This document shows, piece by piece, positions 3,018-18,180 of a DNA stretch of 45,111 nt (position 1 is the first letter of the stretch; each line of letters starts with the position of its first letter). A model generated the notes under the pieces. That model did not search any database. It saw nothing but the letters and a program-made list of their open reading frames with translations, and was not told where the DNA came from. Made by a program: the position numbers and the translations under genes. The stretch lies in the NCBI GenBank assembly GCA_017480495.1, contig JAFVAQ010000018.1, forward strand, positions 1 through 45,111. The letters are read 5' to 3'. Source of the DNA: Eubacterium sp. Lineage in GTDB: Bacteria > Bacillota > Clostridia > Lachnospirales > Lachnospiraceae.

Positions 3018-4094
3018 ATGAAGAAGATAGGAATTTTAACAAGTGGTGGCGATTGCCAGGCGCTAAATCCAACAATGAGAGGTGTAGTAAAGGGACTGGA
3101 AAATCTTTTGGGAGATGTTGAAATCTATGGTTTCCTGGAAGGTTACAAGGGTCTCATATATGGCAATTATAAGAAAATGAAGCCTATGGAATTCTCAGGA
3201 CTTCTTGCTAAGGGTGGTACAGTTCTTGGAACATCAAGAGTTCCATTTAAATATCTGGATACACCTACAGAGGATGGAATCGAGAAGGTTCCTGCTATGA
3301 TAAAGACATATAAGAAACTGGATCTGGATTGTCTATATGTTCTGGGAGGAAATGGTTCTCAGAAGACCGCCTACAGATTGTTCCAGGAGGGACTAAATGT
3401 TATAGGTCTTCCAAAGACTATAGATAATGATATATATGGAACAGATGTTACATTTGGATTCCAGAGTGCTATAGATGTTGCGACTCATGCAATTGATTGT
3501 ATCTATACAACTGCAGAGTCTCACAATAGAGTTTTTGTAATAGAAACAATGGGTCATAAGGTTGGATGGATAACCCTTTACGCAGGAGTAGCGGGTGGAG
3601 CTGACGTTATTCTTCTTCCAGAGATTCCATATGATATGAAGAAGGTTTACAAGACCATCGAGAAGAGACAGAAGATGGGAAAGAAGTTCGCTATAATCGT
3701 TGTTGCAGAAGGTGCCATTTCTAAGGAACTGGCAAAGCTTCCTAAGAAGGAAAGAAAGCAGAAGATAGCTGAACGCCCATATCCATCAATTGCGTACGAA
3801 ATAGCAAAGGATATTCAGGAGAAGTATCCTACCTCAGAGGTTAGAGTTGCTCTTCCTGGTCATACACAGAGAGGTGGAAATCCTGATGCGTATGATAGAG
3901 TACTTTCTAGCCGTTTCGGTGCAAAGGGTGCTGAGCTCTTCAAGGCTAAGGATTTTGGAAAGCTTGTTGTCTTCAGAAATAATGAAGTTACGGCTATTCC
4001 TATGGAAGAGTCTGCTGGTAAGCTGAAGTATGTTGATCCAGATAATCAGCTGATTCAGGAGGCTAAGACACTTGGTATATCCTTCGGAGACTAG
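3018..4094 (+). CDS. 6-phosphofructokinase, group with PKTIDND motif
   Basis: Phosphorylates fructose 6-phosphate to the 1,6-bisphosphate in glycolysis. The 358-residue product starts with the nucleotide loop GILTSGGDCQALN (residues 5-17) and has the catalytic PKTIDND motif at 132-138. The phosphate-donor motif reads GGNGS at 110-114. Gly at the position that is Asp in pyrophosphate-dependent enzymes argues for ATP, but the Lys of PKTIDND is more typical of PPi-type or long-form enzymes, and the usual Asp of GGDGS is Asn. Donor specificity is therefore open, and no pfkA/pfp symbol is assigned. AGGAGGGG stands just before the ATG. It lies 53 bases after recR with no terminator between, so it may be read from the same transcript. 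Confidence 0.9.
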   Translation: MKKIGILTSGGDCQALNPTMRGVVKGLENLLGDVEIYGFLEGYKGLIYGNYKKMKPMEFSGLLAKGGTVLGTSRVPFKYLDTPTEDGIEKVPAMIKTYKKLDLDCLYVLGGNGSQKTAYRLFQEGLNVIGLPKTIDNDIYGTDVTFGFQSAIDVATHAIDCIYTTAESHNRVFVIETMGHKVGWITLYAGVAGGADVILLPEIPYDMKKVYKTIEKRQKMGKKFAIIVVAEGAISKELAKLPKKERKQKIAERPYPSIAYEIAKDIQEKYPTSEVRVALPGHTQRGGNPDAYDRVLSSRFGAKGAELFKAKDFGKLVVFRNNEVTAIPMEESAGKLKYVDPDNQLIQEAKTLGISFGD

Positions 4095-11482: not shown

Positions 11483-12334
11483 TTGGACAAAGGAAAAAGA
11501 ACCAGATTTCTTGTAGTAACTGCTATAGTTCTGGTACTGCTCCTGGTCAGTATTTTCATAACATATAAGGGAGGCGCAAATCACGAATCTTTAAAGACCG
11601 TGATGAGAGATGCCGTTATCCATGAAGAGAACAAAATGAACTTCTTTGGACTCACGGTTAATCCTTCACTTATAGCAGGCTATCTAGTCTCAGCAATACT
11701 TTTATTTATTGCATTAATGATTAGAATCTTCGCTATACCTCGTTTCAAAACTGTTCCTGGAAAGTTCCAGATAGTAATTGAAACCTGGGTAGGATATTTT
11801 GATAATCTGGCTAAAACGAACAGTCCACATTTGAATGGTGCTCTTGGTGCATACATATTTGCGGCAGGATCATATATCTTCGTGGGAACTATATTTGAGC
11901 TTTTTGGTGTACAGTGGATGACAACAGCAGGTAATCCAATGGCACTTCCGGCGCCGCTCTGTGACATAAATGGAGCGATAGCTATGGGTGTATTCTCATA
12001 TGGCTTTATCATGTCAGGTGGTATAAGGAAGAACAAATTAAAGGGAATCGGACTTACGCTGAAAGAGTTTTCACTTCCGATATCCATGAGTTTCCGTCTA
12101 TTCTGTGCACTCCTATCTGGAGCACTCGTTACGGAACTTGTTTATTACACTATTATGCTCAGCTTTGTGCTTCCAGTACTGGTAGGTGTTCTCTTTACAC
12201 TGATACACGCAGTGGTACAGGCTTACGTTCTTACAATGCTGACATCGATATATTATGGTGAGGTGTCAGAGGTTCATGAGAAGAAGCCTAAGAAAAAGAA
12301 AGAGAAGAAAACTGAAGTCGCAGTAGAAGCGTAG
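11483..12334 (+). CDS. atpB: ATP synthase F0 subunit a
   Basis: Subunit a forms the ion half-channels next to the c-ring. The product is 283 residues from a TTG start, which has AAAGGAG at 11467-11473. It has the expected hydrophobic helices. The essential arginine is R205 in MSFRLFCALLSG, the segment that corresponds to the LRLFANILAG motif of other a subunits. The C-terminus is an unusual Lys/Glu-rich tail (EKKPKKKKEKK). It is first in the atp operon; no atpI or atpZ precedes it. The next gene is atpE after about 50 bases. Confidence 0.93.
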   Translation: MDKGKRTRFLVVTAIVLVLLLVSIFITYKGGANHESLKTVMRDAVIHEENKMNFFGLTVNPSLIAGYLVSAILLFIALMIRIFAIPRFKTVPGKFQIVIETWVGYFDNLAKTNSPHLNGALGAYIFAAGSYIFVGTIFELFGVQWMTTAGNPMALPAPLCDINGAIAMGVFSYGFIMSGGIRKNKLKGIGLTLKEFSLPISMSFRLFCALLSGALVTELVYYTIMLSFVLPVLVGVLFTLIHAVVQAYVLTMLTSIYYGEVSEVHEKKPKKKKEKKTEVAVEA

Positions 12335-12386: not shown

Positions 12387-12764
12387 ATGAAACTAATGAA
12401 GAAAGCATTGATAACACTTTTATTATTATTTGCAGCATTTGGAGTATTCTCAGCGGTTGCACCTGCATCAGTATCCTATGCGGCAGAAGAAACTACAGCA
12501 ACTGAGGAAACAGAAGATGCAGAAGCAGCAGAAGGTAACTCAACAGCTGGTAAGGCTATAGGCGCTGCTATCTCAATTGGTATTGCAGCAGGTCTTGGTG
12601 CATTAGGTATGGGTCTTTGCGTTGGTAAGGCTGCTGAAGGAATCGCTCGTCAGCCAGAAGCTGAAGGTAAGATCAGAACAACAATGATCCTTGGTATCGT
12701 ATTCATAGAGACAGCTGTTCTTTATGCACTGGTTATATCGATACTGATTATATTCGTCCTATAA
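12387..12764 (+). CDS. atpE: ATP synthase F0 subunit c with signal peptide and acidic linker
   Basis: Subunit c forms the rotor ring that carries the coupling ion. The usual protein is 70-90 residues; this one is 125. Residues 1-32 look like a signal peptide (basic start, hydrophobic core 7-25, cleavage near SYA-A), then comes a Glu/Thr-rich linker (34-49), then the ordinary hairpin from about 54 with the ARQPE loop (87-91). The ion-binding carboxylate is E108, with T109 and Y113 at positions used by Na+-type rings. The glutamine of helix 1 that marks Na+ rings such as Ilyobacter Q32 is M75 here, 33 residues before the Glu as in that protein, so H+ coupling is more likely but not settled. Confidence 0.93.
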   Translation: MKLMKKALITLLLLFAAFGVFSAVAPASVSYAAEETTATEETEDAEAAEGNSTAGKAIGAAISIGIAAGLGALGMGLCVGKAAEGIARQPEAEGKIRTTMILGIVFIETAVLYALVISILIIFVL

Positions 12765-12826: not shown

Positions 12827-13309
12827 ATGCCATTAGGAATAGATATAACACAGATTTTACTTCATATGTTCAATGTAGTATTACTCTTTGGCGGTCTGTA
12901 CGTTATTATATACGCTCCTGTTAAGAAGATAATGCAGGAAAGAGAGAATCATTACAAAGAACTAGATGAGCAGGCTCAGAGTGCTCTTGCTGAAGCTCAG
13001 CAGAAGAATGAAGAGGCAGAGGGTAGACTGAAGGAGCTGGAGGGTGAGATATCTCAGCAGAAGAGAAAGGCTTCTCTTGATATAGCTGCTATGAGATCAA
13101 ATGCCGAAGCAGAAGCTAAAGAATCTGCTAACAAGATAATTGATAAGGCTAAGAAGGATGCCGAGAATCAGAAGCAGGCTATTATTGAGTCCGCTAAGAA
13201 GGATATTACTGAGATGGTAGAGGAAGCAACTCGTAAGGTTGTTCTATCAGGAAACACTAGTGAGGCATATGATATGTTTCTTAAGAATGTTGAAAGGAGC
13301 GGTAGTTAA
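12827..13309 (+). CDS. atpF: ATP synthase F0 subunit b
   Basis: Subunit b forms the peripheral stalk linking F0 to F1. The 160-residue product has one N-terminal membrane helix (about 8-28, MFNVVLLFGGLYVIIYAPV) followed by a long charged helix rich in Ala, Glu, Lys and Gln that would pair as a coiled coil. Length is normal, so no delta N-terminal domain is hidden at its C-terminus. GAGAGG precedes the ATG. Its stop codon is followed directly by the GTG of atpA, where an atpH gene would normally lie. Confidence 0.93.
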   Translation: MPLGIDITQILLHMFNVVLLFGGLYVIIYAPVKKIMQERENHYKELDEQAQSALAEAQQKNEEAEGRLKELEGEISQQKRKASLDIAAMRSNAEAEAKESANKIIDKAKKDAENQKQAIIESAKKDITEMVEEATRKVVLSGNTSEAYDMFLKNVERSGS

Positions 13310-15067
13310 GTGGCAGAAGAGAAAAAAACACGCGCCTGTTTATATGCCCTTTCGGAACCTGATGAATCTCAGAAAGCCAAGTTTGCCAGCTTTATAGCAG
13401 AAAGATATGGCGAAGGAATAGAGCTTGAGTGGAAAAAAGACGAGAGCTTAGGGACTGGCTTTAAGCTTGTTGTTGGTGAAGAAGTATATGACTGGACCAA
13501 CACAGGAAGACTCCATCAGCTAGAGGAAATGCTTAGAGCCCTTCGTGAGGAGAAGGTAGACTCAGGAAATGAGCTTATATCCCTGATGAAGAGTAGTATA
13601 AATGATTGGGAGCCGCATGTAATCGCAGAGGAAGAAGGTCATGTAGAAACTGTCGGAGATGGAATAGTTTTCGTAGATGGACTTAAGTCTGCAATGTATG
13701 GAGAAATAGTCATTTTCGAATCTGGCGTAAGAGGAATGGTGCAGGAGTTAAGACCTGATGATATAGGTGTCATTCTCTTCGGTGATGACACAGATGTTAC
13801 TGAGGGAAGCCGTGTTATGAGAACCGGCAAGACTGCAGGTATTCCTGTAGGTGATGGATTTTTGGGCCGTGTAGTAGATCCTTTGGGTAATCCAATAGAT
13901 GGAGAAGGTCCAATTGAGGCAGAAGGATATAGAGCGGTTGAAGAAGCTGCTCCTGGTATCATCGCAAGACAGTCCGTTGATACTCCTATGAACACAGGAA
14001 TCCTGTCTATAGATTCAATGTTCCCAATAGGTAGAGGTCAGCGTGAGCTTATTATAGGTGATAGACAGACCGGTAAGACTGCTATCGCCCTCGATACAAT
14101 ACTAAATCAAAAAGATAACGATGTAATATGTATATATGTTGCTATAGGTCAGAAGGCAAGTAGTGTTGCTCAGTTAGTAGGAACCCTTAAGAAACAGAAT
14201 GCTATGGACTACACTATAGTAGTTGCGGCAAATGCATCTGAGACAGCACCTATTCAGTATATAGCACCATATTCAGGAACATCCCTGGCAGAGTATTTCA
14301 TGTATAAGGGTAAGGATGTACTTATCATATATGATGACCTGTCAAAGCATGCTATAGCGTATAGAGCTCTTTCGCTTCTTCTTGGAAGATCTCCAGGACG
14401 TGAGGCATACCCAGGAGATGTATTCTATCTTCATTCAAGACTTCTTGAGAGATCTGCGCATCTTTCAGAGGAACTAGGGGGAGGAAGTATTACAGCTCTA
14501 CCAATAGTTGAAACACAGGCGGGCGATGTATCCGCTTATATTCCAACAAATATCATTTCCATCACGGATGGTCAGATATTCCTAGAAAGTGATCTGTTCT
14601 TTGCTGGACAGAGACCAGCGGTAAATGTTGGACTTTCGGTATCCCGTGTTGGTGGTGCTGCACAGACCAAGGCTATGAAGAAGGCTGCGGGTAGCCTCCG
14701 TCTAGATCTGGCACAGTATCGTGAGATGGAAATATTCACACAGTTCTCCAGTGATCTGGATGAAACAACAAAGAAACAGTTGCAATATGGACAAGGACTT
14801 ATGTATTTGCTGAGACAGCCTCAGAACCATCCATTTAAACTGCATGAACAGGTTGTTATTCTTGTATCAGCAACTGCACATGTTATGCAGGAGATTCATC
14901 CTGACGATATAGCAGATTTTAGAACAAAGCTTCTTGCATATTTCCATGAGGAAGAGGATGCTCTCTGCAAGCAGATTGATTCTACAGGACAGCTATCTGA
15001 TGATGATAAGCAGATGATAATTGACGCAGCAAATAAATTCCGTGATTCATATATAAACAATAAATAA
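13310..15067 (+). CDS. atpA: ATP synthase F1 alpha subunit with fused delta C-terminal domain
   Basis: Non-catalytic subunit of the F1 hexamer. The product is 585 residues, about 80 more than normal, and its Walker A (GDRQTGKT, 250-257) is shifted 81 residues from its E. coli place at 169. Ordinary alpha starts near residue 84 ([12 protein letters not shown]). The first 82 residues align with the C-terminal domain of delta (AtpH): the AKF..FIAERYG helix, [11 protein letters not shown] matching the VKLNCKIDKSV strand of E. coli delta, [12 protein letters not shown], and [10 protein letters not shown] matching GRLERLADVL. No atpH is present in the operon. The GTG start is fixed by AAAGGAG at 13293-13299, immediately after the atpF stop. 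The delta N-terminal domain is not seen anywhere in the window. Confidence 0.95.
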
Positions 15068-15084
15068 TTTAACTATTAAAAATT

Positions 15085-15987
15085 ATGCCAAATACTAAAG
15101 AGATAAAAAATAGAATAGGAAGTGTTCAGAATACTCAGAAGATCACTAATGCTATGTATCTCATTTCCTCTACAAAGATGAGGAAGGCAAAGGAAGAACT
15201 GGACAAGACCAGACCTTATTTTGAAATGCAGGAGAATGAGATTCGTCGTATTTTCCAGACTGAGATAGATATCATGAGCCGATATTTCTATCCTAAAACA
15301 GGACGAAAGCCGGCAGAGACATATGCATATCTGGTGATCACTGCTGATAAGGGACTAGCCGGCGCATATAACCATAATGTTATTAAGCTCGCAGAACAGG
15401 AAATGGCGAAGCATAAGAATGTTAAGTTATATGTAGTAGGTGAATACGGACGTCGTTACTTCAAGAAGAAGGATTATGGTATGGAACAGACATTTCTCTA
15501 TACCGCACAGAATCCTACCTTTTCTAGGGCTAGAGAGATAAGCTCGATACTTCTTGAAGAATACGATAGTAAGCGTATAGATGAGATAAGAGTTATCTAT
15601 AGTGATATGGAAAGTGAGTTCCTTACTACAGTTAAGATGATGAGACTTCTTCCTTTTGACCGAAAGGAATTTTGGACTAAAAAGGATGAGAGAGATTTGA
15701 AGGATGTTCATTATGAATTCTCTCCTTCTGTTGACGAAGTACTTAATCGTGTTATTCCGGGATATGTAGCTGGATGTATATATGGTGCACTCGTAGACAG
15801 CTTCTCTGCTGAACAGAATGCGCGTATGACAGCTATGAATTCTGCTAACAAAAATGCAGAAGCACTTCTAGATGAACTAAGAATCGAGTATAACAGAGTT
15901 AGACAGGCGGCTATCACTCAAGAAATAACTGAGGTAGCTGCAGGAGCTCGTGCTCAGAAGAAAAAACGTATTAAAGAGGAGGCTTAA
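15085..15987 (+). CDS. atpG: ATP synthase F1 gamma subunit
   Basis: Gamma is the central shaft that couples c-ring rotation to catalysis. The 300-residue product has the family start KEIKNRIGSVQNTQKIT and the matching C-terminal helix (VRQAAITQEITEVAAGARA). It follows atpA by 17 bases. The ATG has no clear Shine-Dalgarno sequence (TTAACTATTAAAAATT precedes it), unlike its neighbours, which may lower gamma output relative to alpha and beta. There is one gamma per three alpha-beta pairs. Confidence 0.95.
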   Translation: MPNTKEIKNRIGSVQNTQKITNAMYLISSTKMRKAKEELDKTRPYFEMQENEIRRIFQTEIDIMSRYFYPKTGRKPAETYAYLVITADKGLAGAYNHNVIKLAEQEMAKHKNVKLYVVGEYGRRYFKKKDYGMEQTFLYTAQNPTFSRAREISSILLEEYDSKRIDEIRVIYSDMESEFLTTVKMMRLLPFDRKEFWTKKDERDLKDVHYEFSPSVDEVLNRVIPGYVAGCIYGALVDSFSAEQNARMTAMNSANKNAEALLDELRIEYNRVRQAAITQEITEVAAGARAQKKKRIKEEA

Positions 15988-17789
<1,802 letters not shown>

Positions 17790-17790
17790 A

Positions 17791-18180
17791 ATGGTATCGG
17801 ATGTTTTGTCGAATGATGTATGGAAGAGGACGATTAGAAATATCCTTATACTGGGTCTTTTTGGCGTCGTATATTATTTTGTAGCAAGATTTACAGACTT
17901 CGGAATCAAATGCTATGTATACGAGCTGACAGGACTTAAGTGTCCTACCTGTGGCGCGACTAGAATGGCTATTGCATTAAGTAAGCTAGATTTTAAAAGC
18001 GCTTTTAGGTATAATGGTTTTATACTTGTTTCGTTGCCTTTTATTATAGGAGAGATAATGTATCTGTTCTACGTAAATGAGGCCAAGGTGAAAGTAAATA
18101 AGAAAAATGCTGTCGTGATGTATGTTTGGGTAGGACTGCTAGTTATTTTTGGTATAGTCAGAAATATTTTTGGTTTCTAA
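17791..18180 (+). CDS. DUF2752 membrane protein
   Basis: A 129-residue membrane protein of the DUF2752 family, function unknown. The family signature is clear: LTGLKCPTCGATRM with a CxxCGxTR core near residue 50, then a hydrophobic helix. About three membrane segments are visible. The ATG at 17791 is one base after the atpC stop codon, so it is probably translated by coupling from the atp transcript; an upstream in-frame TTG at 17752 lies inside atpC and is not preferred. The family is not known to be part of ATP synthase. Confidence 0.8.
   Translation: MVSDVLSNDVWKRTIRNILILGLFGVVYYFVARFTDFGIKCYVYELTGLKCPTCGATRMAIALSKLDFKSAFRYNGFILVSLPFIIGEIMYLFYVNEAKVKVNKKNAVVMYVWVGLLVIFGIVRNIFGF

Follow-up and report, generated by a model that had tools for sequence, protein, structure and literature searches.

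How an F-type ATP synthase holds its peripheral stalk when its operon lacks a delta gene, and how many stalks it could hold when the stalk-binding part of delta has been joined to alpha, is the question raised by an operon in the window, by which we mean the whole stretch of 45,111 nucleotides that was analysed (contig JAFVAQ010000018.1 of Eubacterium sp.). The genes lie on the + strand in the order a-c-b-(delta-CTD)alpha-gamma-beta-epsilon, where CTD denotes the C-terminal domain:

11483..12334, + strand: atpB, subunit a (PF00119, E = 6e-16)
12387..12764, + strand: atpE, subunit c, with a long N-terminal extension that is hydrophobic and then acidic (PF00137, E = 2.5e-15, residues 58-121)
12827..13309, + strand: atpF, subunit b, with a C-terminal YDMFL motif (PF00430, E = 2.9e-11)
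13293..13299, + strand: Shine-Dalgarno sequence AAAGGAG of the fused alpha gene (from the sequence)
13310..15067, + strand: fused atpA, delta C-terminal domain plus alpha, 585 aa (ORF, PF00213, TIGR00962)
15085..15987, + strand: atpG, gamma (PF00231, E = 4.6e-89)
15994..17382, + strand: atpD, beta (ORF; match to the atpA model below the cut-off, as expected of beta)
17379..17789, + strand: atpC, epsilon (PF02823, E = 1.1e-19; PF00401, E = 6.7e-9)

The atpA model TIGR00962 matches the alpha protein with 745.5 bits (cut-off 484.45), as an F-type alpha should, and its alignment begins at residue 87, so that about 82 residues are additional at the N-terminus. A previous reading of the sequence alone had put the excess at about 81 residues and assigned it to the C-terminal domain of delta; the HMM search that it called for agrees, with PF00213 (OSCP/delta) matching residues 1-82 alone with an E-value of 9.3e-8 (32.8 bits; gathering cut-off 22.3) and the whole protein with an E-value of 3.1e-6. 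Its account of the translation start is also borne out: the start codon is GTG, the AAAGGAG lies 10 nt upstream of it, and the b ORF (12827-13309) stops with a TAA (13307-13309) directly 5' of the GTG. The Pfam scan likewise found no delta among the operon genes (beta being identified from its ORF and the atpA-model match), in line with the claim that atpH is missing from the operon. The delta C-terminal domain and alpha thus lie in one open frame, the arrangement of a delta-deltaN-alpha fused FoF1, and the fusion is confirmed as real and well supported.

The match to OSCP in the protein begins at profile position 99, which means that the delta N-terminal domain is absent. At the nucleotide level the match in the window spans 13103-13534 (profile positions 31-172), crossing the C-terminus of b and the stop codon, and the same backward extension is seen in other members of the genus in which b and alpha share a frame. 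An N-domain suggested by a match from position 31 was rejected, as the alignment runs back through b in the same frame. The N-terminal part of the fused protein can be divided as follows:

13316..13534, + strand: delta (OSCP) C-terminal domain, residues 3-75 (PF00213 positions 99-172; predicted strand-helix-three strands-helix, residues 9-79)
13535..13567, + strand: linker, residues 76-86 (spacing from G66 of GRL to G110; alignment to PDB chain 9jc1)
13565..13606, + strand: alpha N-terminal amphipathic helix, residues 86-99, retained (model; conserved hydrophobic positions)

An AlphaFold2 model of the protein, for which 45 fused sequences (that of the window and 44 relatives) were aligned, has a mean pLDDT of 76.6, with block means of 75-84 over residues 11-70. 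It places strands at residues 9-13, 39-43, 51-55 and 58-61 and helices at 19-33 and 64-79, followed by a distinct helix (86-99) ahead of the alpha barrel. Four strands and two helices are the pattern of the chloroplast delta C-domain as described in a review (PMC6131620), and the prediction therefore supports the delta identity. In the structure search with the whole model, the 50 matches listed are alpha chains whose alignments almost all begin at residue 82 or beyond, which leaves the search neutral on the fold of the extra domain. The residues P17, G50 and F51 are invariant across the 45 fused proteins. The spacing between G66 (in GRL) and G110 is 44 in the window, which is also the median in 63 CTD-only fusions (range 39-57). 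The hydrophobic positions of the alpha N-helix are conserved although the delta N-domain that this helix normally serves is gone. At residue 100, just after the helix, 62 of 64 unfused alphas have Tyr, all 63 CTD-only fusions have Trp or Phe, and the six full-length delta-alpha fusions have one of Phe, Thr and Ser.

The window genome is an assembly of 41 contigs that is 65.6% complete; its OSCP match is the fused gene alone, and it has one F-type alpha above the cut-off together with an A-type ATPase on a different contig. Its incompleteness is answered by relatives: G302, a single contig of 3,191,482 bases (99% complete), has the fused gene as its sole form of delta and one F-type alpha, and G352 (91% complete) has only the fusion. 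The alpha of one relative (L087) is 98% identical to that of the window. The sequence-only reading had staked itself on delta similarity in the extension and on there being no complete atpH elsewhere in the genome. The similarity is present, and a separate full-length atpH, as an ordinary F-ATPase would have, was found for this enzyme neither in the operon nor in the window genome or G302.

That reading had also proposed a survey for atpH and long alphas. Among 61 genus genomes, one of them the window's, 57 carry the fused gene, and it is in frame in all 57 re-extracted loci, some of which end at contig ends; an OSCP match of any kind is found in 58 of the 61. A separate full-length delta, in a frame of 178-188 aa, is present in 23 of the 61 genomes, 22 of which also have the fusion, leaving 35 with the fusion only, one with a separate delta only and three with neither. 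The separate delta looks like part of a second, ordinary F-ATPase. Among nine close sequences the median dN/dS is 0.135 for the delta domain, 0.157 for the linker, 0.113 for the alpha N-helix and 0.049 for the alpha core (of 36 pairs, 25, 23, 20 and 36 were usable, respectively), values that are rough because dS, at about 1-1.7, is near saturation. The fused delta domain is under purifying selection, and it evolves faster than the alpha core.

This faster evolution, together with the weak similarity seen in single-sequence comparison (the best plain delta chain in the PDB has an E-value of 0.02), is what could be cited for an extension created by faulty annotation or assembly, or for one that is still translated yet is an idle leftover in decay. 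The 57 of 57 loci in frame, the purifying selection, the profile match over a curated cut-off and the presence of the extension in the single-contig G302 all speak against this, and we regard it as highly improbable. A different concern is whether every alpha in the ring carries the domain, as a ring of one fused and two plain alphas could arise if plain alpha were supplied by internal initiation, by proteolysis or from a second gene. The 22 genus genomes in which the fused gene occurs beside a separate delta would allow such a mixture, as would the unfused F-type alpha that accompanies the fused one in G304 (a member of the genus), G361 and G363 (not members), but the window genome and G302 have a single F-type alpha. 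An internal start giving plain alpha was sought in 70 fused genes as an in-frame linker start with a Shine-Dalgarno energy at or below -6 kcal/mol. Ten of the 70 have one, and the candidate was rejected, as the rate per start codon in the linker (12.8% of 86) is close to that at controls inside alpha (11.4% of 1437). The 5' starts of the fused genes reach 90% of 70, a figure flattered by choosing the best-scoring candidate per gene, which does not affect the comparison of linker and control. The window linker has two ATGs, with energies of 0.4 and -1.9 kcal/mol. With neither an unfused F-type alpha found in these two genomes nor a conserved internal start, three fused alphas per F1 are to be expected unless proteolysis intervenes; on the gene content, all three alphas should thus carry the delta C-domain, and a mixed ring is unlikely, although less so than an artefact.

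The nearest counterpart of known structure is an engineered enzyme. According to Ueno et al. (2025; PMC12229609), the delta N-domain, sitting on the three-fold axis, is argued to limit ATP synthase to one stalk; in Bacillus PS3 FoF1 this domain was deleted, the C-domain was fused to alpha and the structure was solved by cryo-EM. The particles had zero, one, two or three stalks in 15, 51, 26 and 8% of cases, subunits a and b were 2.2 and 1.8 times as abundant as in the wild type by gel, and the H+/ATP ratio was 5.8 compared with 3.0; stalks and a-subunits each numbered as many as three. With window residues 1-150 as the query, the top PDB match is the fused delta-alpha chain 9jc1 (E = 4.9e-11), which from its name and sequence we take to be this construct. 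The alignment passes through the junction, and the natural linker is one residue longer. The three PDB chains found at or below 1e-180 with full-length window AtpA are plain or hybrid alphas, not 9jc1, so the likeness to the construct lies in the junction rather than in the alpha core. (In the structure search with the whole model, in which the extra domain lay mostly outside the alignments, 9jc1 is missing among the 50 matches listed.) The junction match and the like spacing thus give the window enzyme the anatomy of the construct.

The window gene encodes a natural delta-deltaN-alpha fusion, in which a linker of about 11 residues covalently connects the delta C-domain, the part that grips the ends of the b-dimer, with the N-terminal helix of alpha. 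With the C-domain tied to alpha, the delta N-domain, the usual clamp on F1, would not be needed; the sequence-only reading had held it to be dispensable, and the match that starts only at OSCP position 99 agrees with this. The fused domain is very probably a working replacement for delta. Each F1 would then bear three docks for b-dimers, one per alpha, and with the stalk-limiting domain on the three-fold axis gone, one, two or three b2-a stalks could bind, their number varying as in the engineered PS3 enzyme of the same design. Several stalks would raise the H+/ATP ratio and could make ATP synthesis possible at a low proton-motive force (pmf); alternatively, more ions would be pumped per ATP against a low pmf. 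We infer the three copies per F1, the docking of b, the presence of more than one stalk and the raised H+/ATP from this anatomy; a model of a b-alpha read-through, meant for docking, reached a pTM of just 0.29 and is uninformative. For the combined proposal (fusion, three docks, one to three stalks and raised H+/ATP) we consider the chances to be even, and for the formation of more than one stalk in vivo, by analogy with the engineered enzyme, slightly below even.

The competing arrangement is an enzyme with a single stalk, in which one of the three delta C-domains holds the sole b-dimer and two stay empty, be it through the supply of a and b or the space around the c-ring. About half of the engineered particles described in PMC12229609 are one-stalked and 15% have none, and the operon holds one a gene and one b gene, as is usual. 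Full-length delta-alpha fusions in relatives should by the same logic have one stalk, so that fusion by itself is compatible with one. Against this, the loss of the N-domain, in the CTD-only members as in other classes, removes the very limiter named in that work, and the window linker is about as long as that of the multi-stalk construct. A single stalk with two idle docks is a serious possibility that stays somewhat under an even chance, and we hold it to be nearly as likely as one to three stalks. The sequence-only reading had pictured three delta-like domains facing one b-dimer; as stalk numbers from none to three are seen in the engineered counterpart, that is just one possibility.

Some of the neighbouring subunits have features of their own. 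Of the b proteins from CTD-only operons, 50 of 53 end in a YDxFL-type C-terminal motif, as do five of seven from operons with full or partial fusions and six of 55 with an unfused alpha, all six in the window's own alpha lineage; the b proteins were chosen by a script on composition, and some may be missed or wrong. Subunit a (11483-12334) has similarity at about 1e-90 or better in seven CTD-only operons, including those of Helcococcus and Neofamilia, and at just 1e-6 to 1e-11 in operons with a full-length or separate delta; one further CTD-only operon (L203) is unlike the seven, at 1e-7. Judging from these sequences, a distinct type of subunit a accompanies the window's sublineage. In subunit c, about 57 residues (12387-12560) precede the Pfam match, hydrophobic and signal-like and then acidic, and the ion site reads ETAxxY with Met at one position. 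Na+-type c subunits carry Gln there; with Met in its place, the ion is probably H+. After epsilon there is a small membrane ORF (17752-18180) with the motif GLKCPTCGATR, which resembles DUF2752.

The fusion extends well beyond the genus. An OSCP match occurs in 250 of 299 genomes of the family (best-scoring places only, with fused and separate forms counted together). Of 80 relatives kept from 238, 70 have the extension in frame, nine have an unfused alpha and one is a contig starting inside alpha. CTD-only carriers include Lachnospiraceae AC2031 and NE2001, Helcococcus sueciensis and Neofamilia massiliensis, and six of the 70 fused genes, among them those of Anaerosacchariphilus polymeriproducens and Parasporobacterium paucivorans, have a full-length delta fused to alpha. 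One relative (L095) has an upstream stretch that is possibly an N-domain remnant. An uncultured Clostridia bacterium (L079, 4404-6758) encodes an alpha of 785 aa with two delta N-domain matches and a C-domain, in an operon that also has two tandem c genes (3320-3890). In a class sample of 393 genomes (the window's included; completeness of at least 90 for the others), 32 match the profile of the fused N-terminus at 1e-28, 29 of them, from 11 families, without a stop in the matched frame. In a phylum sample of 398 genomes, 104 match at 1e-15, mostly through adjacent delta and alpha separated by a stop, and 11 are in-frame fusions. Six in-frame fusions lie outside the class (G399, G442, G541, G458, G646 and G689), besides a 246-aa fragment (G566); in all five of those outside the class that were scanned with Pfam, the OSCP match starts only at position 99-104, i.e. 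the N-domain is missing. No other delta was found in the genomes G399, G442, G541 and G458, and G646 and G689 each have another delta besides the fusion.

The fusions from outside the class are separated from the window's lineage on the alpha tree (100/99), which suggests that fusion accompanied by loss of the N-domain arose more than once. A quick tree of 134 rows requires at least five changes of the fused state, and a topology uniting all fused rows is better by 47 log units. A careful tree of 79 rows requires at least four; here a single clade of all fused rows is not rejected (p-AU 0.124) and one of CTD-only rows is borderline (p-AU 0.059). With the fusions of other classes added (69 rows), at least ten changes are needed, G399 and G541 falling beside a genome with a separate delta (96/79) and G458, G646 and G689 forming another group (97/98). 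We read these trees as more than one origin of the fusion, with gain and loss indistinguishable on them.

A second rotary ATPase appears, from sequence matches, in all 11 genomes scanned for one. A second F-type alpha is present in G304, G361 and G363, and the A-type B subunit was confirmed in G302, G325, G326, G327 and G337; G362, G364 and G399 show the same pair of match lengths and are read by us as A-type. G361 (Lachnoclostridium sp. An181, locus L069; contigs C34, C51 and C10) has three F-type alphas: an ordinary one of 504 aa, one of the window's lineage with a separate delta (522 aa) and the fused one of 606 aa. Across the 61 genomes of the genus, 31 have an A-type ATPase, 23 a separate delta, none both and seven neither, six of these seven being less than 90% complete. 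The exclusion gives a Fisher p of 5e-11 with related genomes treated as independent; on the tree, only two changes, and at most two independent pairs, account for it, so that the real sample is very small and the exclusion is a hint rather than a statistic. The gene rnfC is present in 23 of the 61 genomes, and 19 of these are among the 23 with a separate delta.

In the boldest reading, which we put forward tentatively and as somewhat less probable than its opposite, the fusions form a large natural class of multi-stalk ATP synthases, with up to three b2-a units on one c-ring. Such an enzyme would share the work with a rotary ATPase of the conventional type, serving as the gear for low pmf. If this is true, the H+/ATP ratio would be roughly doubled or tripled in such a class, which would bear on the life of fermenting gut anaerobes at low pmf, and gut and rumen bacteria may have made a multi-stalk machine before engineers did. 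The existence of natural multi-stalk enzymes with an altered gear ratio becomes directly testable: the full-length delta-alpha relatives are possible natural single-stalk controls, and some genomes hold fused and ordinary enzymes together.

Among the papers listed by searches of the open-licence literature, none was found on the clostridial lineage, the full-length delta-alpha form or the form with tandem N-domains, and of those consulted only PMC12229609 was seen to describe a delta-alpha fusion. Its authors state that an FoF1 with more than one a-subunit had yet to be identified, and predict natural multi-stalk structures for delta-deltaN-alpha proteins from three entries: Acidaminococcus fermentans, UniProt G4Q3K6 and A0A1I2C5T3. 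The present lineage adds many candidates to those three, including isolates with only the fused gene. Compared by the description given there, these proteins, like that of the window, are delta-alpha fusions without the delta N-domain; the window's lineage differs from the Acidaminococcus case in taking in Lachnospiraceae, other Clostridia and full-length delta-alpha relatives.

The mycobacterial b-delta fusion (NF009961; chains 7jg5 and 8j0s) also has delta covalently tied to a neighbouring subunit, but there the delta is full-length and the tie is to b, whereas the window b is a protein of 160 aa separate from alpha and carries no delta. The mycobacterial fusion is present in one copy per enzyme. 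The b-delta fusion is described in PMC5709465. The N-ATPase (TIGR03321 b, TIGR03324 alpha) likewise does without a separate delta, but any tether would be to b, its gene order begins with beta and epsilon, and it has two extra genes. Neither that order nor that alpha is found in the window (613.3 bits against TIGR03324, below the cut-off of 750.5), and the C-terminus of the N-ATPase b (TIGR03321 positions 188-243) resembles the window delta C-domain with an E-value of 0.003, far below the cut-off. The longer b of N-ATPases has been likened to the A-type E subunit (PMC5706428); ProAD (PMC11738941) describes delta as fused with b in N-ATPases and makes no mention that we found of a fusion to alpha.

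The engineered Bacillus PS3 enzyme is the closest in kind, with the same order of domains, the N-domain removed and a near-identical spacing at the junction. It was designed, with a glycine-serine linker and a truncated epsilon, while the window protein is natural, belongs to a distant alpha lineage and is accompanied by a full epsilon. The sequence-only reading had called the geometry unlike that of any textbook enzyme, which holds for textbooks; in 2025, however, PMC12229609 presented an engineered enzyme of this design with its cryo-EM structure and named natural cases, and the window enzyme is a further member of the kind, known until now as a construct and from a handful of species.
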